Source: Pedococcus sp. 5OH_020 (GTDB lineage: Bacteria; Actinomycetota; Actinomycetes; Actinomycetales; Dermatophilaceae). Taken from it: 64,000 nt of DNA. The position numbers and the translations under genes were made by a program. Positions 5,983-32,049 of this stretch are shown here, piece after piece. Each line of letters opens with the position of its first letter. Position 1 is the first letter of the stretch. Below the pieces are notes generated by a model, which saw only the letters and a list, made by a program, of their open reading frames with translations, was not told the DNA's origin and ran no database searches. The stretch covers positions 186,001 to 250,000 of the forward strand of contig NZ_JAPYZV010000001.1 in assembly GCF_027812955.1 (NCBI RefSeq), read 5' to 3'.

Positions 5983-6046
5983 TGCGTAATACACAACACG
6001 ATGAGCGATACGCAACAGTGTGCCGGGTTGGCGCAGCAGGGGTCAA
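5983..6046 (-). promoter_or_regulatory. Promoter and double-box operator of the purU operon (site A1)
   Basis: Read on the minus strand, TTGACC (6046-6041) is followed 18 bp later by a weak -10 CACACT (6022-6017). One base later comes box 1, TTGCGTATCGCTCA (6015-6002), then box 2, TTGTGTATTACGCA (5996-5983), starting 19 bp after box 1. The boxes cover the expected transcription start and early transcript, a position suited to repression. The same arrangement recurs at 6129, 12359, 30311 and 31987. Confidence 0.75.
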
Positions 6047-6128
6047 GGGGCGGCGTCGGCGGCCACACAGGCTTCCGCGTACCCTCCTCGGCGGGCGCGC
6101 CACGGACCGGACGATGTCGGTCCGAGTC

Positions 6129-6193
6129 TTGACAGGTCGCATTCTGCGGGACCACTCTGTTGCACAACAAGCATTCAGGTGCGCGATGTGCAA
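6129..6193 (+). promoter_or_regulatory. Promoter and double-box operator of the aldehyde dehydrogenase-transporter operon (site A2)
   Basis: TTGACA at 6129-6134 is followed after 18 bp by a poor -10 CACTCT (6153-6158). Box 1, TTGCACAACAAGCA (6160-6173), starts 31 bp after the -35 start. Box 2 begins with GTGCGCGATGTGCA at 6179, again 19 bp after box 1. The aldehyde dehydrogenase start codon is 43 bp further downstream. Confidence 0.75.
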
Positions 6194-6235
6194 CAACATC
6201 ACTGCCGCGCCTCCCCCCTGCGGAAGGGTCCCCGA

Positions 6236-7705
6236 GTGCCAGAGCTCTACGTGGACGGCGAGTGGGTAGAACCTGTCGCCGCAGACCATCGAGACATTCG
6301 ATGTCCGGCCGACGGACGGCACGTCGCGACCGTCTCGGAAGCGAGCGCAGCCGACACCGTCAAAGCCATCGCCGCCGCCCGCCGGGCCTTCGACGAGGGC
6401 CCGTGGCCCCGCACCGCAGAGCTCGAACGAGGTGCGTTGCTGCTGCGCACCGCGGACCTCCTGCTGCGGGACAAGGCGGAGTTCGCGCGGGCCGAGAGCC
6501 TCGACACCGGCAAGCGGCTGGTGGAGGCCGAGTACGACATCGACGACGTCGTCAGCTGCCTGCGCTACTACGGCGGCATCGCGGGCACCGACGCGGGGCG
6601 GGTCATCGATACCGGCCGCGACGACGCCATCAGCCGGGTGGTGCACGAGCCGGTCGGCGTCTGCGGCCTCATCACCCCCTGGAACTACCCGCTGCTCCAG
6701 ACCTCCTGGAAGGTCGCTCCGGCACTCCTGGCCGGCAACACCTTCGTCCTCAAACCCAGTGAGCTGACGCCGTCAACCGCCATCCTGTTGATGCGCAGCC
6801 TCGAGGAGGCGGGGCTTCCCCGCGGCGTCGGCAACCTCGTGCTGGGTGCCGGCGACCGCGTCGGGGCGCCGCTTGCGGAGCACGCTGACGTGGACCTCGT
6901 CTCCTTCACCGGCGGCGTCGACACCGGCCGGTGGATCATGGCCGCGGCGGCACAGACGGTGAAGAAGGTCGCCCTGGAGCTCGGCGGCAAGAACCCCAAC
7001 ATCATCTTCGCGGACGCCGACCTGGAGACCGCCGTGGACTTCGCGCTCACGGCGGTGTTCCTGCACTCCGGCCAGGTGTGCTCCGCCGGGTCACGCCTCA
7101 TCGTGCAGGACGAGGTGCACGACGCCGTCGTGGACGAGGTGGTCAGGCGCGCTGACTCCATCCGGCTCGGTGGACCGTTCGACAGCCGAGCCGAGACCGG
7201 CGCGCTGATCTCCGCAGCACACCTCGAGAAGGTGGCCAGCTACGTCAAGGCCGGCATCGCCGAAGGCGCCGTACTGCGGTGTGGCGGCTTCCGTCCTGAG
7301 ACCGGGGCGTTGAAGGACGGCTACTTCTACCGGCCGACAGTGCTCGACGAGTGCAGTACGGGTATGCGGGTCGTCCAGGAGGAGTCCTTCGGTCCGGTGC
7401 TCACTGTGGAGCGCTTCACGGACGAGGCCGACGCCGTACGGATCGCGAACGACACGATGTACGGCTTGGCCGGCGCGGTGTGGACCCAGGACGGCGGCAA
7501 GGCGCAGCGGGTCGCACAGGGGCTGCGGCACGGGACGGTGTGGATCAACGACTACCACCCCTACGTCCCCCAGGCGGAGTGGGGTGGCTTCAAGCACTCC
7601 GGCATCGGGCGGGAGCTGGGCCACGCCGGCCTGGCCGAGTATCGCGAGACCAAGCACATCTGGCAGAACATCCGCCCCTCGGTCCAGAGGTGGTTCAGCG
7701 GATGA
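6236..7705 (+). CDS. betB: Betaine-aldehyde dehydrogenase family protein
   Basis: 489-residue NAD(P)+-dependent aldehyde dehydrogenase. It starts [17 protein letters not shown] after a GTG preceded by GGAAGG. Family motifs are [21 protein letters not shown], the glutamate loop [14 protein letters not shown], and the catalytic cysteine segment [23 protein letters not shown] and the C-terminal [20 protein letters not shown] are also present. The last motif is typical of betaine-aldehyde dehydrogenases. It probably oxidises the product of BetA to glycine betaine. The stop overlaps the ABC ATPase start (ATGA at 7702-7705), so oxidation and uptake are one transcription unit under site A2. Confidence 0.88.
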
Positions 7706-8853
7706 CGATCCCGTCGCAGTTCACCGAGCCGGCCCAGTCCAGTGAGCCCAGTGCAGGAGAGACCATGACCACGGCGATCCCGGAAGAGCTCGTCCAGTCC
7801 CCATCCCTCGAGGCCAAGGCCACGGCCGGCGCTCCGGCACCCGTGATCTCGGTGCAGAACCTGTGGAAGGTCTTCGGCGCCAACGCCGACGGGGTGCCAC
7901 GGTCCGAGGAGCTGCGGGCCTTGCCGCGCAAGGAGCTGAAGCAGCGCACTGGGTGTGTCGCCGCAGTCTGCGACCTCAGCTTCGACGTGGCGCCGGGGGA
8001 GGTGTTCGTCGTCATGGGCCTGTCCGGGTCGGGCAAGTCCACCCTCGTCCGCTGCCTGACCCGGCTCATCGAGCCCACTGCCGGACGGGTGCTCTTCAAG
8101 GGCGACGACATCCTGCAGGCCAACGAGCGGTCGCTGCGTGAGCTACGCCGGCACAACATCGCCATGGTCTTCCAGCACTTCGGGCTGCTGCCGCACCGCC
8201 GGGTCGCCGACAACGTGTCCTACGGGCTGGAGATCCGGGGGGCGGGCAAGAAGGAGCGCTCCCAGCGGGCGGCGGAGGTCATCGACCTCGTGGGACTGTC
8301 CGGGTACGAGAGCTCCTTCCCCGACCAGCTCTCCGGGGGTATGCAGCAACGCGTCGGTCTCGCACGGGCGCTGGCTGGCGACCCCGAGGTGCTCCTCTTC
8401 GACGAGCCGTTCTCGGCGCTCGACCCCCTGATCCGGCGTGACATGCAGAACGAGGTCATCCGGCTGCACCACGAGGTCGGCAAGACGATGGTGTTCATCA
8501 CGCACGACCTGTCCGAGGCGCTCAAGCTGGGCGACCGGATCCTCATCATGCGGGATGGAAGGCTGGTGCAGGTGGGGACCGGCGCCGAGCTGGTCGGCGC
8601 GCCGGCCGACGACTACGTCCGCGACTTCGTCCGCGAGGTGCCGCGATCCCACGTCCTGACTCTGCGCTGGATCATGCGGCCGGTACAACCGGACGACCAG
8701 CTGGACGGCCCCGAGTTCGGTCCGGAGGTCGTGGTGCGTGAGGCGGTCCGAGCTGTGCTGGAGTCGGAGCGACCCATCAAGGTCGTCGAGGACGGCCGGC
8801 TGCTCGGCGTCGTGGGGAACGCCGAGATCCTGGCCGTGGTGGCCGAGTCATGA
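7702..8853 (+). CDS. proV: Glycine betaine/proline ABC transporter ATP-binding protein (ProV/OpuAA type)
   Basis: 383-residue ATPase of a quaternary-amine uptake system. Walker [10 protein letters not shown] is near residues 106-114, the signature is [14 protein letters not shown], Walker B is [13 protein letters not shown] and the switch histidine is in FITHD. The insertion between the first strands ([18 protein letters not shown]) is characteristic of ProV-type ATPases. The C-terminal extension after residue 300 looks like a single remnant CBS-like region. The first ATG overlaps the aldehyde dehydrogenase stop. A second ATG at 7765 has a good GGAGAG site and would give 362 residues; either start is possible. 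The stop at 8851-8853 begins the ATGA relay described next. Confidence 0.9.
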
Positions 8854-9048
8854 CCAGTCGCTCGTGTCCTCAGGCGGTCGTCGCATGACCATGCTGAACC
8901 GGCCCTGCTCCTCGGCCTTGCGGGCCTCGCTCCTTCGTCGCTCGTGTCCTCAGGCGGTCGTCGCATGACCATGCTGAATTGGCCCTGCTCCTCGGCCTTG
9001 CGGGCCTCGCTCCTTCGTCGCTCGTGTCCTCAGGCGGTCGTCGCATGA
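8850..9048 (+). other. Relay of three ATGA-overlapping mini-ORFs between proV and the permease
   Basis: The proV stop overlaps an ATG at 8850 that opens a 12-codon ORF ending at 8888. That stop overlaps ATG 8885, which opens a 27-codon ORF ending at 8968. That overlaps ATG 8965, another 27-codon ORF ending at 9048, which overlaps the permease ATG at 9045. Every junction is ATGA. The 80-bp period shifts frame at each copy, yet the stop-start overlap is restored each time. The peptides (MTMLN...CPQAVVA) probably have no function themselves. Their translation could keep ribosomes coupled to the permease start. Confidence 0.6.
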
Positions 9049-9050
9049 CC
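8857..9050 (+). repeat. 80-bp tandem direct repeat, about 2.4 copies
   Basis: The block beginning CTCGTGTCCTCAGGCGGTCG occurs at 8861, 8941 and 9021, exactly 80 bp apart. The two full copies differ visibly only at a CC/TT pair (8899-8900 versus 8979-8980). The third copy breaks off just after the permease start codon. Each copy contains the ATGACC that serves as the permease start in the last one, so the repeat is a duplication of the gene junction. Confidence 0.95.
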
Positions 9051-11030
9051 AGCATCGCGCTGGTCCGGACGGGGATCCGCCCCTTCCGTGGAGCCATCGT
9101 CACCGCGCTGCTGCTGGTGTGGCTCGTCGGCTTCACCGTCCTGCACGGCCAGGACACCCTTGCCCTCGGCGCGGCCGACACCACCCCACTGCATGGCCGG
9201 CTCAACGACCTCAACGACGCGGTCGGCGCGAACCGCAACAGCAACCCGCTGTTCCTGTACTTCTTCAACGAGATCCGGCTCGTGGTCGACCAGCTCACCA
9301 CGTTCATCTCCTCCCTGGTCTCCCAGCCGGCATTCGGACGACCCGTCCCCCTCATCGGGTGGCTCGGCGTGGTGGCCCTGGTCGGCTTCGGGTCCTGGGC
9401 GCTGGGCAACCTCAAGGTTGGGCTGCTCGCCGCCGCTGGGTTCACCTTCATGGGGCTGCAGGGGCTCTGGCAGCAGAGCATGGACACCTTCGCGCTCACG
9501 CTGTCGGCGGTGCTCGTGGCGCTGCTCGTCGGCATACCGCTAGGGATCTGGGCGGGAGTCTCGGACAGGGTGAACCGGATCGTCACCCCCGTACTCGACT
9601 TCATGCAGACGATGCCGACCTTCGTCTACCTGGCGCCACTCACGCTCGTCTTTCTGATCGGCCCGGCGTCCGCTGTCATCGCGACGCTGATCTACGCCGC
9701 CCCGCCGGTCATCCGCATCGCGGCACACGGCATCCGGCAGTCGCCCAAGGAGACGCTCGAGGCTGCGCAGTCGCTCGGCGCCACCCGGTCGCAGACGCTG
9801 CGCCAGGTGATGCTGCCACTGGCCAAGCGCACCATCGTCATCGGTGTGAACCAGACCATCATGGCCGCCCTCTCGATGGTCACCATCGCCGCGCTCATCG
9901 ACGCGCCGGGCCTCGGCAGGGTCGTCCTGCGCTCCCTGCAGTCGCTGGACGTCGGGACCGCGTTCAACGCAGGCCTGTCCATCGTCATCATGGCCATCGT
10001 CTTCGACAGGGTCACGACGGCGGCCAGTGTCCGTGTCGAGCGAGCCCGGCGGACGACGAGCAGGATCCCAGCCAGGGTGCGCAAGGTGGCGCTGCTCGTG
10101 GGTGGAGCGGTCACGGCCGTCTGCCTCTACCTGTCCTACACCTTCGTCTGGGCCGCCGAGTTCCCCACCGATTTCGACGTCGGCAGCCCGATCAGTCGTG
10201 CCGCCTCGGCCGTCACGGACTGGGCCCAGCTGCACCTGAGCGCGCTGACGAGCGACTTCAAGGAGCTGGTCACCAACAGCCTCCTCAACCCGTTCCAGAG
10301 CCTCCTGACCGACTCGCCATGGTGGCTGTTGTTCGCCGTGCTGGTCGGCATCGCCGCCGTCGCAGGCAGCGTCCGGACCGCCGTGACGACGGCCCTATGT
10401 CTGGCACTCATCGTCGGCACCGGCTTGTGGTTCGACGCCATGACCACCCTTGCCGCGACGCTCGTCGCGACGGTCGCCGTCATGGCACTGGGCCTCGTCC
10501 TCGGCGTGTGGATGGGCCGGAGCGTCAGGGTCGACCGGGTCATCAGGCCCGTACTGGATGCGGCGCAGACCATGCCGTCCTTCGTCTACCTCGTCCCCTT
10601 CGTCGCGCTGTTCGCGGCCAGCCGGTTCACCGGTATCGCGGCCGCGGTGGTGTATGCGGCGCCCGTGGCGATCAAGATCATCGCCGACGGGATTGCCGCC
10701 GTGTCGCCCACGACGATGGAGGCGGCCACCGCGGCCGGTTCGAGCAGCTGGCAGGTCATCACCAAGGTCCAGCTGCCGATGTCGCTCGGCACCCTCGCGC
10801 TCGCCATGAACCAGGGCCTCATCTACGTGCTGTCCATGGTCGTCGTCGGCGGCCTCGTCGGCGGTGGCGCCCTCGGGTACGACGTCGTGGCCGGCTTCCG
10901 TCAGAACGCGCTCTTCGGCAAGGGCCTGGCTGCCGGTCTGGCGATCGTGCTGCTCGGCATCATGCTCGACCGGATCACGCAGTCGGTCGCCAGCCGCGCC
11001 CAGGCGACCACCGACCACGTTCGTCACTAG
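9045..11030 (+). CDS. proW: Glycine betaine ABC transporter permease, fused double ProW domain
   Basis: 661-residue integral membrane protein with two complete BPD-transporter permease domains. Domain 1 carries MQTMPTFVYLAPLTLVFLIG and the EAA-like loop EAAQSLGATRSQTLRQVMLP near residues 240-260. Domain 2 carries AAQTMPSFVYLVPFVALFAA and EAATAAGSSSWQVITKVQLP near residues 565-585. Each is preceded by several hydrophobic helices, and a soluble, variable segment joins them. Most systems use a homodimer of a single-domain ProW; here one chain supplies both halves. The ATG at 9045 is the third copy of the duplicated start region. The lipoprotein gene follows after 233 bp. Confidence 0.9.
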   Translation: MTSIALVRTGIRPFRGAIVTALLLVWLVGFTVLHGQDTLALGAADTTPLHGRLNDLNDAVGANRNSNPLFLYFFNEIRLVVDQLTTFISSLVSQPAFGRPVPLIGWLGVVALVGFGSWALGNLKVGLLAAAGFTFMGLQGLWQQSMDTFALTLSAVLVALLVGIPLGIWAGVSDRVNRIVTPVLDFMQTMPTFVYLAPLTLVFLIGPASAVIATLIYAAPPVIRIAAHGIRQSPKETLEAAQSLGATRSQTLRQVMLPLAKRTIVIGVNQTIMAALSMVTIAALIDAPGLGRVVLRSLQSLDVGTAFNAGLSIVIMAIVFDRVTTAASVRVERARRTTSRIPARVRKVALLVGGAVTAVCLYLSYTFVWAAEFPTDFDVGSPISRAASAVTDWAQLHLSALTSDFKELVTNSLLNPFQSLLTDSPWWLLFAVLVGIAAVAGSVRTAVTTALCLALIVGTGLWFDAMTTLAATLVATVAVMALGLVLGVWMGRSVRVDRVIRPVLDAAQTMPSFVYLVPFVALFAASRFTGIAAAVVYAAPVAIKIIADGIAAVSPTTMEAATAAGSSSWQVITKVQLPMSLGTLALAMNQGLIYVLSMVVVGGLVGGGALGYDVVAGFRQNALFGKGLAAGLAIVLLGIMLDRITQSVASRAQATTDHVRH

Positions 11031-11106
11031 CCGGCGCTGCAGGCACGCCACCTCAAGCAAGGCATCCCTCCAGGCAGGCCACAGACCACGCAAGCCGACA
11101 GATCAA

Positions 11107-11145
11107 CCCCACCGCTCCACCCCACCGCTCCACCCCACCGCTCCA
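11107..11145 (+). repeat. Three 13-bp tandem repeats upstream of the binding-protein gene
   Basis: CCCCACCGCTCCA occurs three times in direct succession in the permease-binding protein gap. The gap also holds C-rich sequence and a short inverted repeat around GGCCAGGTGCCCAGCTGGGC. No operator box of the betaine type is seen here, so the binding protein is probably read from the upstream promoter, perhaps with extra mRNA processing in the gap. Confidence 0.85.
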
Positions 11146-11263
11146 CCTGGCCAGGTGCCCAGCTGGGCCTGACCGGCAGCCCGGCACCCGCCGTCCGCCG
11201 CGTCGTCCGTCCGGCACCAGCCAGCCATAGCACCAGCCCACGCGTCGACCGAAAGGCACCATC

Positions 11264-12259
11264 ATGTTCCGAACCACCGGCATCACCCCCCGGCCTCGAG
11301 CGGTCGCGGGTCTCGCCGCCGCTGGGCTCGCCCTCTCGCTGAGCGCCTGCGGTGGCGCCAAGGTGGGCGACACAGCGGCCGGCGCGCAGAGTGGGGGAGG
11401 AGCCAGCGGCAAGTGCGGCACCTTCAACCTGGCAGTGAACGCCTGGGTCGGCTACGAGGCCGACGCGGCGGTCGTGGCGTATGTGGCGAAGCACAAGCTC
11501 GGCTGCAAGGTCGTGCCCAAGAACCTCGACGAACAGGTGTCCTGGCAGGGTTTCGGGACCGGCGAGGTGGACGCGATCCTGGAGAACTGGGGCCACGACG
11601 ACCTTGCGAAGAAGTACATCACCGAGCAGAAGGTCGCCCAGGACGCCGGTCCCACGGGGAACATCGGCGTGATCGGCTGGTATGTGCCCCCCTTCCTGGC
11701 GAAGCAGCATCCCGACATCCTCGACTGGCACAACCTCAACAAGTACGCCAACCTCTTCGCGACGTCGGAGTCTGGTGGCAAGGGCCAGGTCCTCGACGGC
11801 GACCCCGGGTTCGTGACCAACGACGCGGCGCTGGTCAAGAACCTCGGTCTCGACTACAAGGTCGTCTATGCGGGCTCCGAGGCAGCCCTCATCACGAGCT
11901 TCCGGCAGGCGGAGCAGAGCAAGAAGCCCATGATCGGCTACTTCTACTCACCCCAGTGGTTCCTGGCCGAGGTTCCGCTGGTGAAGGTGAACCTGCCGAA
12001 GTACACGAAGAACTGCGACGCGGTGCCGGCCAAGGTCGCCTGCGACTACCCGGAGTACAACCTCAACAAGGTGGTGAGCACGAAGTTCGCCCAGTCGGGC
12101 AGCCCGGCCTACCAGCTGGTGAAGAACTTCAAGTGGACCAACGAGGACCAGAACGTCGTCGCCCGGTCCATCGCCCAGGACAAGCTGTCCGACGAGGCTG
12201 CCGCAAAGAAGTGGGTGGACGCCAACCCGGACAAGGTGAACGCCTGGCTGGCCGACTGA
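11264..12259 (+). CDS. proX: Glycine betaine-binding lipoprotein of the ABC transporter
   Basis: 331 residues. It has a positively charged start, a hydrophobic stretch and the lipobox LSAC with the lipidated cysteine at C29, so it is an exported, membrane-anchored receptor. The mature part begins CGTFNLAVNAWVGYEADAAVVAY and continues as an OpuAC-type quaternary-ammonium-binding fold. Aromatic residues usable for a cation-binding cage include those in NAWVGYE, IGWYVP and SPQWF. GAAAGG precedes the ATG. It closes the aldehyde dehydrogenase-transporter operon and is followed by a hairpin. The ligand is taken from context; choline or another betaine is not excluded. Confidence 0.9.
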   Translation: MFRTTGITPRPRAVAGLAAAGLALSLSACGGAKVGDTAAGAQSGGGASGKCGTFNLAVNAWVGYEADAAVVAYVAKHKLGCKVVPKNLDEQVSWQGFGTGEVDAILENWGHDDLAKKYITEQKVAQDAGPTGNIGVIGWYVPPFLAKQHPDILDWHNLNKYANLFATSESGGKGQVLDGDPGFVTNDAALVKNLGLDYKVVYAGSEAALITSFRQAEQSKKPMIGYFYSPQWFLAEVPLVKVNLPKYTKNCDAVPAKVACDYPEYNLNKVVSTKFAQSGSPAYQLVKNFKWTNEDQNVVARSIAQDKLSDEAAAKKWVDANPDKVNAWLAD

Positions 12260-12358: not shown

Positions 12359-12422
12359 TTGACAGCGGTCCGGCGGTCCGCGACGATTGTTGCGGAGCGC
12401 GCATTCTGTTGCGGAAGACGCA
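12359..12422 (+). promoter_or_regulatory. Promoter and double-box operator of the dimethylglycine-sarcosine operon (site B)
   Basis: TTGACA at 12359-12364 is followed 31 bp from its start by box 1, TTGCGGAGCGCGCA (12390-12403). Box 2, TTGCGGAAGACGCA (12409-12422), starts 19 bp after box 1. These two boxes are the most alike of any pair and each is a near-perfect TTGCG-N5-CGCA inverted repeat. The dimethylglycine oxidase ATG is at 12438, so the boxes end within 16 bp of it and could also block the GGAGG site. Confidence 0.78.
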
Positions 12423-12437
12423 TCAACGGAGGTTGGT

Positions 12438-14876
12438 ATGACGGGTCCTCAGGTGGTCATCATCGGTGCCGGTGTCGTCGGCGCTGCACTGGTCGACGAG
12501 CTCACAGCTCGCGGGTGGGACGACGTCACCATCGTCGACCAGGGTGACCTGCCGGCCCCCGGCGGCTCCACGTCGCACGCCCCCGGACTCGTCTTCCAGG
12601 CCAGCGGCTCGAAGACCATGACCGAGCTCGCGCGGTACACCGTCGAGAAGCTCTGCTCGCTCGAGGCGGAGGCCGGTCCCTGCTTCCTGCAGGTGGGTGG
12701 GCTCGAGGTGGCCACCACGCCGGAGCGCGTGGCCGAGCTGCACCGCCGGCATGGCTGGCTGACGGCGTGGGGCGTGGAGTCCCGCCTGCTGGACGCTCGC
12801 GAGACCGCTGCGCTCTACCCCCTCCTGGACCCCGAGGTGGTGCTCGCGGGGCTGCACACGCCGACCGACGGGCTCGCCAAGGCGGTCAACGCGGTGGACG
12901 CGCAGACCCGACGGGCCGCCTCCCGTGGTGCGCGGCTGCTGCCCCGCCACGAGGTCCTCGACATCACGGTGGCGGACGGCAGGGTGACCGGCGTCGTCAC
13001 CGACCATGGCGAGCTGCCCGCTGACATCGTGGTGTGCTGCGCCGGGATCTGGGGACCCGTCATCGCCGCGAAGGTCGGGCTGCGGCTCCCCTTGACGCCT
13101 CTGGCGCACCAGCTGGCGTGGACCTCGCAGGTACCCGACCTGGCCGGTGCGGCGCAGGAGGCGACCCTGCCCATCCTGCGTCACCAGGACCAGGACCTCT
13201 ACTACCGCGAGCGGTTCGACACCATCGGCATCGGCTACTACGGTCACCGCCCCATGCCCATCCGGGCGGAGGACATCGCGCGCCTGGACGAGTCGCAGGA
13301 GATGCCCTCTGTGCTCGAGTTCACCGCCGAGGACTTCGAGGAGGCCTGGAAGCAGACGCAGGTCCTGCTGCCCTCGACGCGCGACGCCAAGATCGAGGAG
13401 GGAATCAACGGCCTCTTCTCCTTCACGACCGACAACATGCCCCTCATCGGCGAGTCGCCGGACGTCAGCGGCTTCTGGGTCGCGGAGGCGGTCTGGGTGA
13501 CCCACTCGGCCGGTGTCGGCCGCGCAGTGGCCGAGCTGCTCGTCGACGGCTACTGCTCCAGCTTCGACCTGCACGAGTGCGACCTCGGCCGGTTCGAGGA
13601 GCACCAGCTGTCGCCGGAGTACGTCCTCACCAGGGACTGCCAGAACTTCGTCGAGGTGTACGACATCCTCCACCCGCTGCAGCCGACGGGCAGCCCACGG
13701 CCCATCCGGACCAGCCCGTTCTACGGGCGCCAACAGGCGCTCGGCGCCGAGTTCCTCGAGGCGTCGGGGTGGGAGCGGCCGCAGTGGTACGCCGCCAACG
13801 CGGCGCTCGTCCAGGGCCGCGACATCCCGACCCCGAACGACTGGGCCGCCAAGTACTGGTCGCCCATCGTGGCGGCCGAGGCCCAGGCGACCAGGGAGCG
13901 CGTCGCGATGTACGACATGACCGCGCTCAAGCGCCTGGAGGTCACGGGGCCGGGGGCCGCGACGTTCCTCAACGGGCTCGTCACCGGCAACGTCGACAAG
14001 TCGGTCGGCTCGGTGACGTACTGCCTGTTGCTCGACGTAGACGGCGGCATCCGCAGCGACATCACGGTGGCTCGCCTGGCAGCGGACCGCTTCCAGGTCG
14101 GCGCCAACGGCAATGCCGACCTCGACTGGCTGACCCGCCACCTTCCGGCCGACGGCAGTGCCCAGGTCCGCGACATCACCGCGGGGACGTGCTGCATCGG
14201 ACTGTGGGGGCCACGGGCCCGCGACCTCATCCAGCCCCTCACCGACACGGACTTCAGCCACGGGGCGCTCAAGTACTTCCGCGCCACGTCCGCTTTCCTC
14301 GGCACGGTGCCCGTGACGGCGATGCGCCTGTCCTACGTCGGTGAGCTGGGATGGGAGCTCTACACGACTGCCGACCACGGCCAGCGACTGTGGGACCTGC
14401 TGTGGGAGGCGGGGCAGCAGTACGGAGTCATCGCGGCCGGGCGGGGCGCCTTCGCCAGTCTGCGGCTGGAGAAGGGCTACCGCTCTTATGGCGCCGACAT
14501 GACCGCCGAGCACGACCCCTACGAGGCGGGCCTGGGCTTCGCCGTCAAGCTCGACAAGGGCGACTTCGTCGGTCGCGAGGCCCTGGTGGCGCGCCAGGAC
14601 TCCAGCACCCGCCGGCTCAGCTGCCTGACCCTCCCCGAACGCGGCAGCGTCGTGGTCGGCAAGGAGCCGGTGTATTCGGGTGACCGTTGCGTCGGCTACG
14701 TGACCAGCGCCGCGTACGGCTACACCATCGGCAAGGGAGTGGCCTATGCGTGGCTCCCCACGGAGCTCGCAGAGGTCGGGACCAAGGTCGAGATCGGGTA
14801 CTTCGACCGACGGGTGGATGCCGTCGTCACGGCCGAGCCACTCTTCGACCCCGCGATGGAGCGGCTGCGCAGCTAG
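12438..14876 (+). CDS. dmg: Dimethylglycine oxidase (FAD and folate domains)
   Basis: 812 residues, very similar throughout to my recollection of Arthrobacter globiformis dimethylglycine oxidase. The N-terminal FAD-dependent amine oxidase half starts [21 protein letters not shown], then [13 protein letters not shown], and later [15 protein letters not shown]. The C-terminal half (about 420-812) is a GCV_T-like folate domain with [32 protein letters not shown] and [19 protein letters not shown]. It oxidises N,N-dimethylglycine to sarcosine and passes the C1 unit to THF as 5,10-methylene-THF. GGAGG precedes the ATG. It is the first gene of the operon that continues with glyA, soxBDAG and sdaA. 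Confidence 0.93.
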
Positions 14877-14994
14877 CGCCAGGGAACCCGTGGCAGACAG
14901 CCACCAGCCCCGCGGCGGCGCCTGGCTGAGTGCGTCCGCCGCCCAGATGACCTCCAGAACCAGTCCCAGACACACAAGACGAAGGTGGCGCACC

Positions 14995-16308
14995 GTGACG
15001 ACCAGCACTCCGCTCCTCGACCAGAGCCGGCTCCTGTCCGCGGGTCTGGCAGAGGTGGACCCCGAAGTGGCCTCAGCCATCGGCGACGAGCTGCGGCGTC
15101 AGCAGCTCACCCTGGAGATGATCGCGTCGGAGAACTTCGCCCCGACTGCCGTGATGCAGGCCCAGGGCTCGGTTCTCACCAACAAGTACGCCGAGGGGTA
15201 CCCGGGCCGTCGCTACTACGGCGGCTGCGAGCACGTGGACGTCATCGAGCAGCTGGCGATCGACCGTGTGACCGCCCTCTTCGGGTCGACGTTCGCGAAC
15301 GTCCAGCCGCACTCTGGCGCCCAGGCCAACACCGCAGTGTTCTTCGCGCTGCTACAACCCGGAGACACCATCCTGGGTCTGAGCCTCGCCCACGGGGGCC
15401 ATCTCACCCACGGGATGAAGCTCAACTACTCCGGCAAGATGTTCGACGTCGTGCCGTACCACGTCCGCGAGTCCGACGGCTTGGTCGACATGGACGAGGT
15501 CGAGCGGCTGGCAGTCGAGCACCGGCCCAAGCTCATCGTTGCCGGCTGGTCCGCGTACCCCCGGCAGCTGGACTTCGTACGGTTCCGCGCCATCGCGGAC
15601 TCCGTCGGCGCGTACCTCATGGTCGACATGGCGCACTTCGCCGGGCTGGTGGCAGCGGGGCTGCACCCTTCTCCGGTCCCGTACGCCGACGTCACGACGA
15701 CGACGACGCACAAGACCCTGGGTGGCCCACGCGGCGGGGTCATCCTGACCAACGACGCGGCGATCGCCAAGAGGGTGAGCTCCGCGGTCTTTCCCGGCAT
15801 GCAGGGTGGTCCGCTTGAGCACGTCATCGCGGCAAAGGCCGTGGCGTTCAAGCTCGCCGCCGAGCCGGAGTTCAAGGAGCGGCAGCGGCGGACCCTCGAG
15901 GGGGCGCGGATCCTCGCCGAGCGGCTGAGTGGACCCGATACCGCCGCCGCCGGCGTCAAAGTCCTCACGGGCGGCACGGACGTGCACCTCGTGCTGGTCG
16001 ACCTACGCGAGTCCGAGCTGGACGGGAAGCAGGCCGAGGACCGCCTGCACGAGATCGGGATCACGGTGAACCGCAACGCCGTCCCATCGGACCCGCGACC
16101 GCCGATGGTCACCTCAGGACTGCGGATCGGGACGCCGGCGCTGGCGACTCGGGGTTTCGACGCGGAGGACTTCGCCGAGGTGGCGGACGTCATCGCACTG
16201 GCCCTGGCTCCGGTCATCGACGAGGAGACGAAGGCGCGGCTGCGTGGCCGGGTCGAGGCGCTCGCGACGCGGCGACCGCTCTACGCCAACCTCGAGGAGG
16301 AGGGCTGA
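14995..16308 (+). CDS. glyA: Serine hydroxymethyltransferase, catabolic operon copy
   Basis: 437-residue PLP enzyme that interconverts glycine plus 5,10-methylene-THF with serine plus THF. The signature [14 protein letters not shown] holds the PLP lysine, K240. Other family blocks are [24 protein letters not shown] and SGAQANTAV. The GTG at 14995 has AAGGTGG upstream. The gene lies 118 bp after dimethylglycine oxidase and its stop shares one base with the soxB start. Position between the two demethylating enzymes suggests it consumes their products (glycine and methylene-THF) to make serine for SdaA. A separate housekeeping copy elsewhere is expected but is not in this window. Confidence 0.93.
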
Positions 16309-17558
16309 TGAGGATCAGCTCGGTCGGCAGCTCGACGACCCCCGGAGCCGACCTGCCCGACCACCCGTCCTTCCTCTGGCGCAACCCGGAGCCGAAGAAG
16401 CACTACGACGTCGTCGTCATCGGTGGCGGCGGGCACGGCTTGGCCACGGCGTACTACCTGGCCAAGAACCACGGCATCACCAACGTCGCTGTGCTGGAGA
16501 AGGGTTGGCTGGCGGGCGGCAACATGGCCCGCAACACCACCATCATCAGGTCCAACTACCTGTGGGACGAGAGCGCCGGGATCTACGAGCACTCCCTGAA
16601 ACTGTGGGAGACGCTCGAGCAGGAGCTGGACTACCCGATCCTCTTCAGCCAGCGAGGCGTCCTGAACCTCGCGCACACCTTGCAGGACGTCCGCGACAGT
16701 GTCAGGCGGGTCAACGCCAACAAGCTGAACGGCATCGACGCCGAGTGGGTGGACGCCCAGCAGGTCAAGGAGCTCTGCCCGATCGTCAACATCTCGCCGG
16801 ACGTGCGTTACCCCGTGCTGGGCGCCACGTACCAGCCGAGAGCGGGCATCGCGAAGCACGACTACGTCGCCTGGGGATTCGCACGCGCCGCGAACGCGAT
16901 GGGGGTCGACCTCATCCAGGACTGTGAGGTCACCGGTCTGGACGTCGTCGACGGTCGGGTAACCGCCGTGGGGACGACCCGCGGAACCATAGGAGCAGGA
17001 AGGGTCGCCCTGTGCGCGGCGGGGCACTCCTCGGTCCTGGCGAAGATGGTGGACCTGGAGCTGCCGCTGCAGTCCCATCCCCTGCAGGCCCTGGTCTCCG
17101 AGCTCCTGGAGCCGGTGCACCCGACCGTCGTCATGTCGAACGCGGTGCACGTCTACGTGTCCCAGGCGCACAAGGGTGAGCTGGTGATGGGTGCCGGGGT
17201 GGACAGCTACAACGGGTATGGCCAGCGGGGCGCCTTCCACATCATCGAGCGCCAGATGGCGGCAGCCCTGGAGCTGTTCCCGGTGTTCGCCCGCGCGCAC
17301 CTGCTGCGCACGTGGGCGGGCATCGTCGACACCACTCCGGACGCCTCGCCGATCGTCGGGCTGACGCCCGTCGAGGACCTGTACCTCAACTGCGGATGGG
17401 GCACCGGCGGGTTCAAGGCGACGCCGGGAGTCGGGTGGTGCTTCGCCGACACGGTGGCCGAGGGCCGGCCGCATCCGCTCATCTCCGCCTTCACGCTCGA
17501 CCGCTTCACGACCGGCGCACTCGTCGACGAGCACGGCGCCGCCGCCGTCGCCCACTGA
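16308..17558 (+). CDS. soxB: Sarcosine oxidase subunit beta
   Basis: 416 residues, catalytic FAD/FMN subunit of heterotetrameric sarcosine oxidase. It shows the dinucleotide motif [22 protein letters not shown] near residue 33 and [22 protein letters not shown], the segment that carries the family's covalent FMN histidine region and substrate site. The C-terminus has [17 protein letters not shown]. The start codon overlaps the glyA stop by one base (TGATG). Length matches the family. The complex oxidises sarcosine to glycine and passes the methyl group to THF or releases formaldehyde. Confidence 0.94.
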
Positions 17559-17622
17559 GTGCGTCGGACCCCACGCAACGAGCGTCACAGCTCATCCAAC
17601 GCCCGACCCAGGAGCAGGAACG

Positions 17623-17901
17623 ATGCAGCTCATCCCATGCCCGTGGTGTGGGCCTCGCGACGAGGTGGAGTTCCACTACGGCGGCGCGGCTCATGTCGCC
17701 TACCCCGAGGACCCGCAGTCGCTCACGGACGAGGACTGGGCGCGGTACGTCTTCTTCAGGGACAACCCGAAGGGGCCGTTCGCCGAGCGCTGGTGCCATA
17801 CGGCCTCCTGCCGGCGGTGGTTCAACGCCATCCGTGACACCGCGACGCACCAGGTGCTCGCCGTCTACCGGATGGACGAGGCGAAGCCGGTGACCTCATG
17901 A
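17623..17901 (+). CDS. soxD: Sarcosine oxidase subunit delta
   Basis: 92 residues, small zinc-binding subunit of sarcosine oxidase. It begins MQLIPCPWCGPRDEVEF; C6, C9, H59 and C63 are all present and correspond to the zinc ligands known for this subunit. The family phrases GGAAHVAYP, YVFFRDNPKGPFAERW and CRRWFNAIRDT are intact. A GGAGCAGG site precedes the ATG, 64 bp after soxB. Its stop overlaps the soxA start as ATGA. Confidence 0.95.
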   Translation: MQLIPCPWCGPRDEVEFHYGGAAHVAYPEDPQSLTDEDWARYVFFRDNPKGPFAERWCHTASCRRWFNAIRDTATHQVLAVYRMDEAKPVTS

Positions 17902-21345: not shown

Positions 21346-22712
21346 CCATCAGCGTCTTCGACCTGTTCTCCATCGGAATAGGGCCGTCCAGCTCGCACAC
21401 GGTGGGACCGATGCGAGCTGCGTGCACCTTCGCCGAGGCATTGGCCGCCGAGGGCGTGCTGCCACAGGTCGCGAGGGTGCGCGTCGAGCTCTTCGGCTCC
21501 CTGGGGGCGACCGGGCACGGCCATGGCAGCGTCAAAGCGGTGATTCTCGGCCTGGAGGGGGAGCGGCCGGAGCTCGTGGATCCCACGGCGGCGCAGCCCC
21601 GGGCCGACAGGGTCGCCTCCGAGAACCGGCTGCTCCTCGCGGGCCGGCAGCAGATCCGCTTCAGCGTCGAGGATGTCGTCCTCCACCGACGGCGTACGCT
21701 CCCGTTCCATCCCAACGGCATGACGTTCCTGGCGGCTGACTCGCGAGGCACCGTTCTGGCCGAACGGACGTACTACTCGGTTGGCGGTGGCTTCGTCGTC
21801 ACGGAGTCGGAGACCGGTGACCGACGGCTCGAGCCGGATCAGACCCCGGTGCGATACCCGTTCCGAACGGGGGGACAGCTCCTCGAGCACTGCGCACGCG
21901 AGCGGCTGCCGATCAGCGGGGTCATGCTGGCGAACGAGCTGGCCTGGCGGTCCGAGGAGGACGTGCGTGCGGGCCTCCTGCACATCTGGTCCGTGATGCA
22001 GGAGTGCGTGACCCGCGGTTCCAGTACCGACGGCGTGCTGCCCGGCGGGCTGAAGGTACGCCGTCGTGCCACGGCCCTGCGGGCCACGCTCGAGGCGGTC
22101 GTTGACGGGACCGACCCGCTGCGCGGCCTGGAGTGGGTCAGCCTTTTCGCGCTGGCAGTCAACGAGGAGAACGCGGCCGGTGGCCGGGTGGTGACGGCGC
22201 CTACCAACGGAGCAGCCGGCATCATCCCTGCCGTGCTGCACTACTACGACCGGTTCGTTCCCGGGGCGGATGACGACGGCGTCGTCCGGTTCCTGCTGAC
22301 CGCCGCGGCGATCGGGGTGCTGTTCAAGGAGAACGCCTCGATCTCCGGTGCCGAGGTGGGGTGCCAGGGCGAGGTCGGCTCCGCATGCGCCATGGCGGCA
22401 GCCGCACTCGCGGAGGTCATCGGAGGCACCCCCGAGCAGGTCGAGAACGCCGCCGAGATCGGCATCGAGCACAACCTCGGCCTCACCTGCGACCCGGTCG
22501 GCGGGCTGGTGCAGATCCCGTGCATCGAGCGGAACGCGGTGGCCTCGGTCAAGGCGATCACCGCGGCCCGGATGGCGCTGTACGGCGACGGGCACCACCA
22601 CGTCTCGCTTGACAAGGCCATCAAGACCATGCGCGAGACCGGCGCCGACATGTCCGTGAAGTACAAGGAGACCTCGCGAGGAGGCTTGGCAGTCAACGTC
22701 GTGGAGTGCTGA
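21342..22712 (+). CDS. sdaA: L-serine ammonia-lyase, iron-sulfur type
   Basis: 456-residue fused-domain L-serine dehydratase that converts serine to pyruvate and ammonia. The N-terminal domain has [16 protein letters not shown]. Cysteines in [19 protein letters not shown] and [19 protein letters not shown] are in the places used by the family's 4Fe-4S cluster. The substrate loop [15 protein letters not shown] is intact. As last gene of the dimethylglycine-sarcosine operon it links betaine-derived serine to central metabolism. A palindrome lies 82 bp after its stop. Confidence 0.95.
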
Positions 22713-23009: not shown

Positions 23010-23013
23010 GGAG

Positions 23014-27544: not shown

Positions 27545-28357
27545 TCAGCTGCCGATGTACCCCATGCGCTGGCTGATCTGGCTGCCCGCTGACCGGAGCG
27601 CGCCGGCGAGGCCCTCGATGCGGTCAGGGACCAGGCGGAAGGCTGGGCCGGAGGCACTCACGGCCGCGACGACCGCACCGGTGTGGTCCCGCACCGGGAC
27701 CGCCACCGCGTTGAGCCCGACCTCGTACTCCTCGAAGGTCGTCGCATACCCGTCGGTCCGAGCCTGCACCAGCTGCTTCTGGAGGGCGGCCCGAGAGGTG
27801 ATCGTGCGCTCGGTCAGCTGCGGCAGCCCAGAGGTCTCGAGGATCTCGTCACGCTGGGCGTCGTCCAGGTGGGCGAGAAGGATCTTCCCGCTCGACGTCG
27901 CGTGCAAGGGCGTGAGCTGCCCCATCCAGGTCTGCGCCGAGATGGCCGCGGGGCCCATGGCCTCGGCGACGTTGACTGCGTAGTGCTGGCGGACCACGGC
28001 AAGGTTCACCGTCTCGCGGACCTGGGCAGCCAGCTCGTCGAGCACCGGCCTTGCCTGGTGGACGAGGTCGAGACGCACGGGGATCGCGCTGGCCAGCCGC
28101 AGGATCCCGAACCCCAGCTGGTACTTGCCGCGGTCCGAGTTCTGCTCGACGAGCCCTCGTTCCTCCAGGGCGGCCAGCAGTCGGAACGCCGTCGACTTGT
28201 GCACCTGGAGGTCGGCGGCTACCTCGCTCACCCCGGCGCCGCCCGTGCGAGCCAGAATCTCCAGCACCCGCACGGCGCGGTCGACAGACTGGACTCCGGC
28301 GGTGCCTTCACCGTTCGTGCGGCTGTTCTCGCGCCTAGTGGTGCCTTCACCGCTCAC
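27545..28357 (-). CDS. IclR-family transcriptional regulator, candidate betaine-regulon regulator
   Basis: 270 residues. The winged helix-turn-helix spans about 22-80: VQSVDRAVRVLEILARTGG, GVSEVAADLQVHKSTAFRLLAALEERGLV. The C-terminal effector domain has the family blocks LHATSSGKILLAHL and GYATTFEEYEVGLNAVAVPVRD. The GTG at 28357 follows an in-frame TAG, which bounds the start. The gene is divergent from betA, and a double-box operator lies between them. It is the only regulator encoded among the catabolic genes. IclR proteins often bind paired elements as tetramers, which suits the paired boxes. The effector is likely choline, betaine or a downstream amine, by inference. Confidence 0.9.
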   Translation of the reverse strand: MSGEGTTRRENSRTNGEGTAGVQSVDRAVRVLEILARTGGAGVSEVAADLQVHKSTAFRLLAALEERGLVEQNSDRGKYQLGFGILRLASAIPVRLDLVHQARPVLDELAAQVRETVNLAVVRQHYAVNVAEAMGPAAISAQTWMGQLTPLHATSSGKILLAHLDDAQRDEILETSGLPQLTERTITSRAALQKQLVQARTDGYATTFEEYEVGLNAVAVPVRDHTGAVVAAVSASGPAFRLVPDRIEGLAGALRSAGSQISQRMGYIGS

Positions 28358-28422: not shown

Positions 28423-28448
28423 GACGCAACTCTATCGCACGTGGGATG

Positions 28449-28481
28449 TTGCGCATGGTGAACCCTGGTGCGTCATACGCG
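28449..28481 (+). promoter_or_regulatory. Double-box operator between iclR and betA (site E)
   Basis: TTGCGCATGGTGAA (28449-28462) and GTGCGTCATACGCG (28468-28481) are again 19 bp apart start to start. The upstream TTGACA found at the other sites is missing. A possible betA -10, TAGAGT, lies at 28489-28494. Overlapping TGACGCAAC sequence nearby may give a further box facing iclR. The site could serve autoregulation and betA control together. Confidence 0.65.
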
Positions 28482-28596
28482 ACTAGCGGTAGAGTCGTGC
28501 CTGCCGATCGGCGAACCGTGCCATGTCCTGGCCGGCGACTGTCGCCCACCCTTTGCGCACCGCAGTCTTGCAGCGGTCCACAGTTCGGAGGAAACC

Positions 28597-30258
28597 ATGG
28601 CGTCCGCGCAGTACGACTTCGTCATCGTGGGAGGCGGCTCTGCCGGTTCCGCGCTGGCCAACCGACTCTCGGCCGACCCGGCCAACAAGGTCCTCGTCCT
28701 CGAGGCGGGTCGCAACGACTCCCTCTGGGACGTTTTCATCCACATGCCCGCCGCCCTGCCGTTCCCTATCGGCAGCCGCTTCTACGACTGGAAGTACGAG
28801 TCCGAACCCGAGCCGCACATGAACGGGCGCAAGATCTACCACGCGCGCGGCAAGGTACTCGGCGGCTCCAGCAGCATCAACGGCATGATCTTCCAGCGCG
28901 GGAACCCCATGGACTACGAGCGTTGGGGAGGGGAGCCGGGCATGGGGACGTGGGACTACGCCCACTGCCTGCCCTACTTCAACCGGATGGAGAACTGCCT
29001 GGCGGCCGACCCCGACGACCCGTTCCGTGGCCATGACGGGCCGCTCGCCCTCGAGCGCGGGCCTGCCGAGAGCCCCCTGTTCGAAGCGTTCTTCAGGGCA
29101 GCGGAGCAGGCCGGGTATGCCCGTACGAGCGACGTCAACGGCTACCGCCAGGAGGGGTTCGCCCGGTTCGACCGCAACATCCGCGCGGGGAGGCGGCTCT
29201 CGGCGGCGCGGGCGTACCTGCACCCGGTCATGAACCGCCCCAACCTGGACGTCATCACCAGGGCGTTCGTGACGCGGGTGCTCTTCGAGGGCAAGACCGC
29301 GGTGGGGGTCGAGTACCAGCATGGCCGCAGCGCCCCGACCACGGCCCGCGGCAAGACGGTGGTCCTGTGCGGGGGCGCCATCAACTCTCCACAGCTGCTC
29401 CAGCTGTCGGGCGTCGGTAACGCCGAGGAGCTGTCCGCGCTGGGCATCGACGTGGTGCACCACCTGCCCGGCGTCGGGGAGAACCTGCAGGACCATCTCG
29501 AGGTGTACATCCAGTACGCCTGTACCCAGAAGGTCACCATGCAGCGGTACCTCAAGCACCGCTACAAGCCCTGGATCGGCGCGAACTGGCTGTTCCGGCG
29601 CAAGGGGCCGGGGGCGACCAACCACTTCGAGGGCGGCGGGTTCGTGCGGGGCAACGACGAGGTGGCCTACCCGAACCTGATGTTCCACTTCCTGCCCATC
29701 GCGGTGCGGTACGACGGGTCGTCGCCGGAGGGCGGTGAGGGGTACCAGGTCCATGTCGGGCCGATGTACTCGGACGCGCTCGGGTCGGTGAAGATCAAGA
29801 GCAAGGACCCGCGGGAGCACCCCGCGCTGCGGTTCAACTACCTGTCCACGGAGCAGGACCGCCGAGAGTGGGTCGAAGCCGTCCGGGTCGCCAGGTCCAT
29901 CCTGACCCAACCGGCTCTGGACGAGTTCAACGGCGGGGAGATCTCGCCCGGACCGTCCGTGTCCACCGACGAGGAGATCCTGGAGTGGGTGGCCAAGGAT
30001 GCCGAGACCGCGCTGCACCCGTCGTGTTCGCTACGGATGGGTGTCGACGAGATGTCGGTGGTCGACCCGCTCACGATGGGGGTGCACGGTCTGGAGGGCC
30101 TCAAGGTCGTGGACGCGTCGGTGATGCCGTTCGTCACGAACGGGAACATCTACGCCCCCGTGATGATGGTCGCGGAGAAGGCGGCCGACCTGATCCTGGG
30201 GAACACGCCGCTCCCGCCGTCGCCGGTCGAGTTCTACCGCTACCAGCCGGTGCACTGA
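28597..30258 (+). CDS. betA: Choline dehydrogenase, GMC oxidoreductase
   Basis: 553 residues. It oxidises choline to betaine aldehyde, and possibly further, using FAD. The ADP-binding motif is [17 protein letters not shown] (G12-G17), followed by LEAGR. GMC signature 1 is [20 protein letters not shown] and signature 2 is [16 protein letters not shown]. The catalytic histidine is H474 in [12 protein letters not shown], and [23 protein letters not shown] closes the fold. A GGAGG site precedes the ATG. The gene is divergent from iclR and followed by a strong hairpin, so it is probably monocistronic. Length and motifs fit bacterial BetA well. Confidence 0.92.
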
Positions 30259-30308: not shown

Positions 30309-30310
30309 TC

Positions 30311-30373
30311 TTGACAGCGGTTGGACGGCCCCGCAGACTGTTGCGTATCGTGCTCTAAGTTGTGCTATCCGCA
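30311..30373 (+). promoter_or_regulatory. Promoter and double-box operator of the ferredoxin-reductase operon (site C)
   Basis: TTGACA (30311-30316), 17 bp, weak -10 CAGACT (30334-30339), one base, then box 1 TTGCGTATCGTGCT (30341-30354). Box 2, TTGTGCTATCCGCA (30360-30373), starts 19 bp later. The Rieske ferredoxin ATG at 30386 is 13 bp after box 2. Confidence 0.77.
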
Positions 30374-30385
30374 TTGAGGTGTCCT

Positions 30386-30754
30386 ATGTTGCCCGTCTGT
30401 CCTCTGTCATCGCTGGCACCCGGCGAAGCCCTGCGCGTGGAGGCGGACCCGCCCATAGCGGTGTTCCACACGGAGGACGGCGAGGTCTTCGCAGTGGACG
30501 ACACCTGCACACACCAGGACGCCTCCCTTGCGGACGGCTGGCTGGAGGGGTGCGAGATCGAGTGTCCGTTGCACGCCTCGCGCTTCGACCTCCGCACGGG
30601 ACAGGTCGACGCGCCACCCGCCAAGAAGCCCGTGCGCACCCACCGGGTCCTGGTCGAGGACGGCCACATCTTCGTCGAGCTGTCGGCCGACGAGCCGAAC
30701 CTGCCGCCCGGTGTCTCGGTGGCAGGCCAGGCGGCCACCGGTGGCCCGCTATGA
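30386..30754 (+). CDS. Rieske 2Fe-2S ferredoxin of the betaine oxygenase system
   Basis: 122 residues. Ligands are C41-x-H43 in DTCTHQDASLADGW and C60-x2-H63 in ECPLHASRFDLRTG, so a complete Rieske cluster site is present. It is a soluble electron carrier of the NirD/BphF-like type. The ATG at 30386 has TTGAGGTG before it. The stop overlaps the reductase start (ATGA). With the reductase next door and the oxygenase 1.3 kb away it would make a three-component Rieske system. Confidence 0.88.
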   Translation: MLPVCPLSSLAPGEALRVEADPPIAVFHTEDGEVFAVDDTCTHQDASLADGWLEGCEIECPLHASRFDLRTGQVDAPPAKKPVRTHRVLVEDGHIFVELSADEPNLPPGVSVAGQAATGGPL

Positions 30755-31971
30755 GGACGGTCGCGGTCGTCGGCGCGTCGCTGGCGGGCCTCTCCTCTGC
30801 CAGGGCTCTGCGGAGCCAGGGGTTCGACGGCCGGCTCGTAGTGATCGGGGACGAGGCCCATCGGCCGTACGACCGGCCCCCTCTGTCCAAGGAGTTCCTG
30901 GCCGGAAAGGTGAGCCTGCCGGACATCGCCCTCGAGGCCGACGACGAGGAGCTGGAGGCCGAGTGGCTGCTCGGTGTCCGCGCCGAGAGGCTGGACCAGC
31001 AGGGGCAGCAAGTCGTCCTGGGCGACGGAAGGCGCATCCGTGCAGACGGCGTCGTCCTTGCCACGGGAGCCAGCGCAAGGAGCCTTCCAGGCCTGAGCGC
31101 CCTGTCAGGTGTCCATGTGCTGCGCACCCTCGATGACGCGCTCGCACTCAGGGCGGAGCTGGAGTCCGGGCGACGTCTCGTGGTCATCGGCGCTGGGTTC
31201 ATCGGGGCCGAGGTGGCATCGACGGCTCATCAGCTGGGCCTCGACGTGACGGTCGTGGAAGCCATGCCGACTCCTCTCGCCGGACCACTGGGAACTGAGA
31301 TGGGAGCCGTGGTGGGCGGCCTGCACGCCGACCACGGCGTACGGCTGTTGTGCGGCACCGGGGTCCGTCGCGTCGTGGGCGCCGAGCGCGCCCAAGGCGT
31401 CGAGCTCCTCGACGGCACGCTGCTGCAGGCGGACGTCGTACTCGTCGGGGTGGGTGCCCAGCCGAACGTCGACTGGCTCCGCGGATCGGCGCTGGAGCTG
31501 GCCGACGGCGTGCAGTGCGACTCGGGTGGCCGCACCGCCGTTCCACACGTCGTGGCGGTCGGTGACTGCGCCGCCTGGTACGACGGGCGGCTGGGCGGCC
31601 ATCACCGGGTCGAGCACTGGACCGGAGCACTGGACCGCCCCAAGCGCGCCGTGGCGACCCTGCTGTCCGGTGACAGCTCCGGACCCGAACCGGCACCCGC
31701 TTACTTCTGGTCCGACCAGTACGACGTGCGGATCCAGTTCGCCGGCAACGCCCAGCTCGCGGACTCTGTCAGGATTGAGGACGGCGACCCCGACGAGCGC
31801 TCGTTCCTGGCGGTCTACCGGCGTGACGACGACGCGGTCGCGGTACTGGCAATGAACCAGCCGCGGCTGTTCACCCGCTGGCGTCGGAGCCTCGCCGCCG
31901 CACCGGTCACGGCACCGGTCACGACATCGGCCACAGCATCACTCACGGCACCGGTCACAGCAACGCGCTGA
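30751..31971 (+). CDS. FAD-dependent ferredoxin reductase of the betaine oxygenase system
   Basis: 406-residue BphA4-like reductase. The FAD motif is VAVVGASLAGLSSARALRSQG at the start, then YDRPPLSKEFLAG. The NAD motif is LVVIGAGFIGAEVASTAHQLG near 145-165, and VVAVGDCAAW is the second FAD contact. The C-terminal reductase domain has the expected VEHWTGALDRPKRAV. The last ~20 residues are a Thr/Pro/Ala tail encoded by short degenerate repeats (CACCGGTCACGG-like), which is unusual and probably disordered. It should move electrons from NAD(P)H to the Rieske ferredoxin encoded upstream. Confidence 0.88.
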   Translation: MRTVAVVGASLAGLSSARALRSQGFDGRLVVIGDEAHRPYDRPPLSKEFLAGKVSLPDIALEADDEELEAEWLLGVRAERLDQQGQQVVLGDGRRIRADGVVLATGASARSLPGLSALSGVHVLRTLDDALALRAELESGRRLVVIGAGFIGAEVASTAHQLGLDVTVVEAMPTPLAGPLGTEMGAVVGGLHADHGVRLLCGTGVRRVVGAERAQGVELLDGTLLQADVVLVGVGAQPNVDWLRGSALELADGVQCDSGGRTAVPHVVAVGDCAAWYDGRLGGHHRVEHWTGALDRPKRAVATLLSGDSSGPEPAPAYFWSDQYDVRIQFAGNAQLADSVRIEDGDPDERSFLAVYRRDDDAVAVLAMNQPRLFTRWRRSLAAAPVTAPVTTSATASLTAPVTATR

Positions 31972-31986
31972 TCCGGGTTTCCGCCC

Positions 31987-32049
31987 TTGACAGCGCGGGC
32001 TCAGGCCAGCATGCTGTTGCGTATAACACATTGTGTTGCGTCATCTAGA
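31987..32049 (+). promoter_or_regulatory. Promoter and double-box operator of the betaine oxygenase gene (site D)
   Basis: TTGACA (31987-31992), 17 bp, weak -10 CATGCT (32010-32015), one base, then box 1 TTGCGTATAACACA (32017-32030). Box 2, TTGCGTCATCTAGA (32036-32049), starts 19 bp later and keeps only the left half of the motif. The oxygenase ATG is at 32087. Confidence 0.75.

Follow-up and report, generated by a model that had tools for sequence, protein, structure and literature searches.

A 36-bp operator, built of two palindromes whose centres lie 19 bp apart, is present six times in a 64,000-nucleotide stretch of the Pedococcus sp. 5OH_020 genome (contig NZ_JAPYZV010000001.1, positions 186,001 to 250,000; hereafter the window), at genes for choline and betaine uptake and breakdown and for the associated one-carbon branch. 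The operator, its spacing, the promoter geometry, the targets, their conservation and the co-occurrence with an IclR-family regulator are established computationally. The six sites probably constitute one regulon, in which the IclR protein encoded in the window would bind all six operators as a tetramer and repress. A wider reading, moderately likely, is that one IclR repressor governs a class-wide actinobacterial programme coupling choline and betaine demethylation to one-carbon disposal through the same rigid operator and promoter geometry; its targets would be uptake systems (ABC, BCCT, ProP), the oxidation steps, PurU, FolD and mycothiol-dependent formaldehyde dehydrogenase, to which some species would add genes for formate-tetrahydrofolate ligase, dihydropteroate synthase and MTHFR-family proteins, some of the targets being on a different contig from the regulator.

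The initial annotation of the window had described six control regions, each with two 14-bp boxes resembling TTGYG-N5-YGCA whose starts are 19 bp apart. The letters and coordinates of the paired boxes are correct at all six sites and the spacing is exact in each, while the consensus is matched strictly by 4 of the 12 boxes, the remainder being off by one or a few bases. A consensus from relatives, based on 97 non-redundant members of 169 distinct sites of at least 20 bits in 80 loci, reads GTTGCGYATNNCGCA-N4-GTTGCGYNATACGCAAC, a near-dyad of 36 bp made of two 17-bp palindromes with strong outer half-sites. The outermost palindrome bases fall outside the 14-bp boxes: box 2 is two bases longer in the relatives' consensus (CGCAAC), and those bases are AC at three of the six sites in the window.

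The sites were examined for recovery and specificity in their own genome. When a matrix was built from five sites and both strands of the window were scored, the held-out site ranked directly after the five training sites in five of six cases; the site at 6160, when held out, also ranked below three reverse-strand readings of other sites. Positions that do not read one of the six sites trailed the held-out site by at least 9 bits in the case of 6160 and by at least 14 bits in the five other cases. A 34-column profile of 34 operators (the six own sites and 28 from relatives) matched exactly those six sites at E<=10 in the 4.43-Mb genome. A relatives-only profile (R2), trained on 28 of 33 selected relatives' operators (four had been discarded for wrong register or poor quality, and another was omitted), recovered five of the six sites at the same threshold, without that at 6160 and with no other match. 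These scans scored 150 of 744 (full profile) and 150 of 1098 (R2) first-look candidates. The R2 scan is a strong test, though not a fully independent one. A search of the genome with the strict consensus pattern gave zero matches, the six known sites included. Paired boxes at many unrelated genes, which the initial annotation had named as evidence that would count against a regulon, did not appear in the profile scans of this genome.

An alignment of 18 regulators brought up 564 related stretches, of which the best 80 served to assess conservation; they originate from Terrabacter, Nocardioides, Arthrobacter, Pseudarthrobacter, Paenarthrobacter, Streptomyces, Streptosporangium, Sphaerisporangium, Planotetraspora, Gordonia, Hoyosella and others. 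Scored on both strands with the own-site matrices, a spacing of 19 yielded 386 positions above 14 bits (23 in a reversed-sequence control), and spacings of 12-18 and 20-31 yielded 0-95; 73 of these best 80 loci contain such a pair. Within 1.5 kb of iclR, a pair above 14 bits is present in 12 of the 18 best homologue loci, the own locus among them, and in 1 of the 12 weaker homologue loci, there at 14.1 bits. A site was taken to face a gene when within 400 bp before it or 120 bp into it. By this measure 218 of 243 sites (90%) face a choline, betaine or one-carbon gene, the figure for random positions in these loci being 22%; if only the gene types of the window are counted, the figures are 162 sites (67%) and 19%, the remaining 56 sites facing split gbcB parts or BCCT, ProP, mycothiol-dependent formaldehyde dehydrogenase or dihydropteroate synthase genes. 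Of the 25 sites outside the count, 23 were judged to be beside such genes just beyond the limits and two to be probable chance occurrences. The expected conservation upstream of orthologues is thus found in relatives.

The promoter context is also regular. As had been noted, TTGACA or TTGACC occurs 30-31 bp ahead of box 1 at five of the six sites, with none at betA/iclR; measured from the start of TTGAC to the first G of the operator, the distance is 29-30 bases. The poor -10 sequence proposed ahead of the operator, in the six bases directly preceding it, has the form CAnnnT at four of the five TTGAC sites (the dimethylglycine dehydrogenase-like gene is the exception); taken as a -10 element, it leaves a spacer of 17-18 bp. 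Of 279 oriented site-gene pairs in relatives, 159 have TTGAC at -28 to -33, and the other 54 positions contain 19 TTGAC words; of the 159, 102 have A at -5 and 102 have T at -1, directly before the operator. Where TTGAC is at -32 or -33, a gap of a few bases seems to separate the -10 element from the operator. At these TTGAC sites, in the window and in relatives alike, the operator is placed just downstream of the promoter, as the initial annotation had it.

Co-occurrence of regulator and operator was examined in 246 actinobacterial genomes drawn from the class. The regulator (E<=1e-45) is present in 48 genomes, and operator sites (E<=0.01) in 17, all among those 48 (17/48 versus 0/198; Fisher 6e-14). 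Among genomes with a dimethylglycine dehydrogenase-like gene, sites are found in 17 of 47 with the regulator versus 0 of 21 without it (p=0.0007). In 35 relatives that we picked from 98, of which 17 have an IclR homologue (E<=8.6e-52) and 18 do not, sites at E<=0.05 occur in 10/17 versus 0/18. The initial proposal that the IclR protein is a tetrameric, inducer-responsive repressor at these boxes thus gains support in one part, the protein being the likely binder by co-occurrence; its oligomeric state and mode of action are considered below.

The regulator belongs to the IclR family, with scores of 58.5 bits for PF09339 (cut-off 22) and 154.8 bits for PF01614 (cut-off 24), and its structure model (mean pLDDT 87.5) matches the fold of 1mkm among others. 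Its best NCBIfam match is BhcR (NF045644), at 202.4 bits below the equivalog cut-off of 350; the E. coli IclR and AllR equivalogs score 125.9 and 137.7 bits, below cut-offs of 380 and 406. Pocket residues were mapped by hand on an alignment with AllR, using the ligand residues given in Table 1 of PMC11323563. The ligand serines 239 and 241 of IclR/AllR are kept as S234 and S236, Asp212 is replaced by T207 and Gly160/Ala161 by S155/S156, and the patch 143/146/154/220 reads A/A/T/L. Because the two serines are kept and Asp212 is not, it is plausible that the effector is some carboxylate different from glyoxylate and pyruvate. The idea of a glyoxylate sensor, raised by the BhcR match, is weakened by the missed cut-off and the pocket differences. 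The aromatic residue W144, a Trp in 16 of the 18 aligned regulators and a Tyr in the other 2, is a tentative lead as part of a possible cage for trimethylammonium in the pocket. Several genomes (G064, G111, G158, G200 and others) have two or three homologues of the regulator each at E<=1e-45, many of them on one contig.

A tetrameric repressor that blocks initiation would agree with the protein family, the palindromes, their spacing and the location of the operator across the predicted start site. The IclR tetramer would occupy each operator with one of its dimers on either 17-bp palindrome. At five promoters the operator follows immediately on the -10 region, so that the bound protein would lie across the start site and the beginning of the transcribed region and block RNA polymerase, until released by a pathway metabolite, probably a carboxylate. 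Binding by this protein, the tetramer, repression, the existence and identity of an inducer, and autoregulation are inferred; the weak -10 leaves room for a dual role of the regulator.

Such a role is the subject of the most serious alternative, namely that the IclR protein is an activator or a dual regulator like BhcR, the weak -10 requiring the ligand-bound protein. The -10 is poor in relatives as in the window (its first base is C in 83 of the 159 promoters and T in 16), as would suit a promoter needing help; activators exist within the IclR family according to the main text of PMC8222616; and BhcR, the best-scoring named subfamily although below its cut-off, activates in vivo, its deletion abolishing induction of its promoter in the experiments described in PMC11323563. 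An operator next to the -10 and running downstream over the predicted start is, however, an unexpected place for an activator to bind, and this alternative appears unlikely. It is considerably less probable still that a different regulator binds the boxes and that iclR only travels with the pathway. Linkage is indeed tight, all 32 of the 246 genomes with gbcA (E<=1e-90) having an IclR orthologue, so that gbcA cannot discriminate; against this stand the absence of sites from all 21 genomes with a dimethylglycine dehydrogenase-like gene but no IclR orthologue, the presence of sites next to iclR itself, and the resemblance of the palindrome to IclR-family motifs such as TTTTTGCGCATAGCGCAAAAA of TphR (PMC8222616, Table 1). 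That the pattern reflects chance in G+C-rich promoter DNA might be argued from the choice of regions and consensus by eye and from the few boxes that fit the consensus strictly; yet the R2 scan of the own genome already makes it very unlikely, and with the leave-one-out recovery, the excess at spacing 19, the full-profile scan, the facing of pathway genes (90% versus 22%) and the distribution among genomes (17/48 versus 0/198) its probability is negligible.

Several further observations weigh against a single IclR repressor acting through this operator, or against the force of the tests. The profile tests are not fully independent, since the 28 training operators were originally found with matrices from the own sites and some of them may come from the scanned genomes; the genomes are moreover related to one another, so that the p-values overstate the significance. 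Seven of the best 80 regulator loci have no pair above 14 bits, and seven of the gene types counted as faced were added after inspection of the surroundings of unassigned sites. The promoter geometry is absent at betA (0/17) and iclR (0/27) pairs. Sites are missing at E<=0.01 from 31 of the 48 regulator-bearing genomes, for which 28 candidates were scored per genome with filters that lose weak matches, and at E<=0.05 from 7 of the 17 regulator-bearing relatives. The control of pathway without regulator is imperfect, as in 3 of its 21 genomes the dimethylglycine dehydrogenase-like genes are at 58-63% identity and in the other 18 only at about 36-41%.

The genome scans returned 55 non-own matches, of which 48 were examined as loci; 40 of these have a listed gene at the site, the list including formate-tetrahydrofolate ligase, which was added after a first look at the matches. 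The other eight comprise two at gbcB, three at MTHFR-family genes, one beside both a homocysteine S-methyltransferase-family open reading frame (ORF) and a ThrE-like ORF divergent from it, one flanked by a NuoF-like gene and a CMD-family gene, and one not identified. Two of the 40 matches, in genomes G022 and G032, are at formate-tetrahydrofolate ligase on contigs other than that of the regulator, which in fragmented assemblies is no proof of distance from it. Taken by locus, the same operator is seen in other actinobacteria at formate-tetrahydrofolate ligase (L131, L135) and at MTHFR-family genes (L119, L122, L189), in each case except L119 on a contig other than that of the regulator. In ten genomes of the same genus (G001-G010) the regulator lacks a close orthologue, three of them having matches at 36-38% identity and the other seven none at E<=1e-30, and the profile scan gave no operator sites there, though distant genera have them; this absence suggests patchy retention or transfer of the cluster.

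Choline and betaine catabolism in other bacteria is under GbdR/BetI-type control, which concerns the same pathway, but through the AraC and TetR families rather than IclR. TtgV is a drug efflux regulator whose operator overlaps the promoter. Structures of this IclR-family protein (PDB 2xrn and 2xro, the latter with operator) give a TM-score of about 0.6 to the model of the window's regulator, and its tetramer on DNA is cited in PMC8222616. In the main text of that study (Suvorova and Gelfand 2021), tandem IclR palindromes with 18-22 nucleotides between centres, mainly 19-21, are described for 94 orthologous groups, and tetramer binding is suggested as the reason for them. The earlier statement that no operator of this form had been described was therefore wrong in kind: the own centres, 19 bp apart, are inside the published range, with 19 the dominant spacing in the best 80 loci. 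The own palindrome shares its length and outer GTT...AAC with the GTT-11-AAC subgroup of that study, and the relatives' consensus GTTGCGYAT...ATRCGCAAC fits its group 1 motif GKTYCRYW3-4RYGRAMC except for G in place of Y at base 4 and C in place of R in the partner half. The TphR motif of Comamonas in the same source nearly equals one of the own boxes; it serves another pathway (terephthalate) in another phylum and is tabulated as one palindrome. BhcR of Paracoccus denitrificans controls glyoxylate assimilation and is an activator in vivo (PMC11323563); the pocket residues differ between it and the window's regulator.

The glyA-soxBDAG-sdaA-purU sarcosine cluster of Arthrobacter and Corynebacterium has long been known and has the same one-carbon and sarcosine gene set as the window (PMC3534580, with reference to Meskys 2001 and Suzuki 2005); no regulator or operator of it is named in the relevant passages of that paper, from whose text the word IclR is absent. 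The sole mention of IclR in PMC3141670 concerns a sugar transport cluster. The words betaine, choline and sarcosine are absent from the main text of PMC8222616, whose supplement lists 181 groups. In searches of the open-licence PMC literature, no title or abstract opening described control of choline, betaine, dimethylglycine or sarcosine breakdown by an IclR-family protein, although the supplementary tables of PMC8222616 may hold one, and no regulator assigned to choline or glycine betaine breakdown in Actinobacteria was found in the open-licence literature. The kind of operator is already known, and the regulon itself may be new. Choline and glycine betaine occur commonly as osmolytes and nutrients; for their breakdown a probable regulator, together with its operator and likely targets, can now be named in Streptomyces, Arthrobacter, Nocardioides and relatives; the sites at folate one-carbon genes suggest that these belong to the same programme, and the operator is usable as a marker for betaine-pathway genes of unknown role.

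Table 1. Operators, promoter elements and genes of the putative regulon, in window coordinates
Feature	Position	Strand	Remarks
purU operator	5981..6016	-	5983-6015 of the initial annotation plus flanks
Operator of betaine-aldehyde dehydrogenase (badh)/ABC transporter genes	6159..6194	+	weakest of the six
Operator of dimethylglycine/sarcosine genes	12389..12424	+	
Operator in divergent iclR/betA gap	28448..28483	+	no TTGAC at the usual position
Operator of gbcB-like gene	30340..30375	+	
gbcA operator	32016..32051	+	folD next
Single perfect box	28414-28430	.	GTTGCTCATGACGCAAC; near iclR start
-35-like TTGACC, purU	6041..6046	-	
-35-like TTGACA, badh	6129..6134	+	
-35-like TTGACA, dimethylglycine dehydrogenase-like gene (dmgdh)	12359..12364	+	
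-35-like TTGACA, gbcB-like gene	30311..30316	+	
-35-like TTGACA, gbcA	31987..31992	+	
IclR-family regulator, presumed binder	27545..28357	-	PF09339 helix-turn-helix and PF01614 effector domain
purU, formyltetrahydrofolate deformylase	5100..5966	-	NCBIfam TIGR00655 above cut-off
Betaine-aldehyde dehydrogenase-like aldehyde dehydrogenase	6236..7705 (ORF 6020-7705)	+	TIGR01804 599.9 bits, cut-off 668.6
Betaine/choline ABC transporter	7351..12259	+	three ORFs
Transporter ATPase	ORF 7351-8853	+	
Transporter permease	ORF 8979-11030	+	
Transporter binding protein-like	11264-12259	+	weak match
Dimethylglycine dehydrogenase-like (dmgdh)	12438-14876	+	gene block 12438..22712
glyA, serine hydroxymethyltransferase	14746-16308	+	
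Sarcosine oxidase subunits B, A, G	within 16308-21345	+	
Serine ammonia-lyase	21342-22712	+	
betA, choline dehydrogenase	28597..30258	+	TIGR01810 above cut-off
gbcB-like, ferredoxin reductase-type	30379..31971	+	named from position beside gbcA
gbcA, glycine betaine monooxygenase-like Rieske oxygenase	32087..33232	+	NF058607 223.7 bits, cut-off 670
folD, methylenetetrahydrofolate dehydrogenase/cyclohydrolase	33364..34218	+	NF010789 above cut-off

Pfam and NCBIfam matches of the window genes (Table 1) support the target set as originally assigned, namely choline and betaine breakdown or uptake with its one-carbon branch. The gbcB-like protein gave no match to a GbcB model, and the probable operon membership of the genes follows gene order. 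The single, perfect 17-bp box near the iclR start, absent from the initial annotation, is a possible autoregulatory site of iclR. In the window it is upstream of the GTG that opens the iclR ORF, and the ATG within it is in a different frame; in locus L002, with a regulator 78% identical, the box spans the iclR start as judged by eye. Between the sarcosine oxidase genes and iclR lies an ORF of 415 amino acids (24558-25805) with an HU-type DNA-binding domain at residues 1-88 followed by a long extension.

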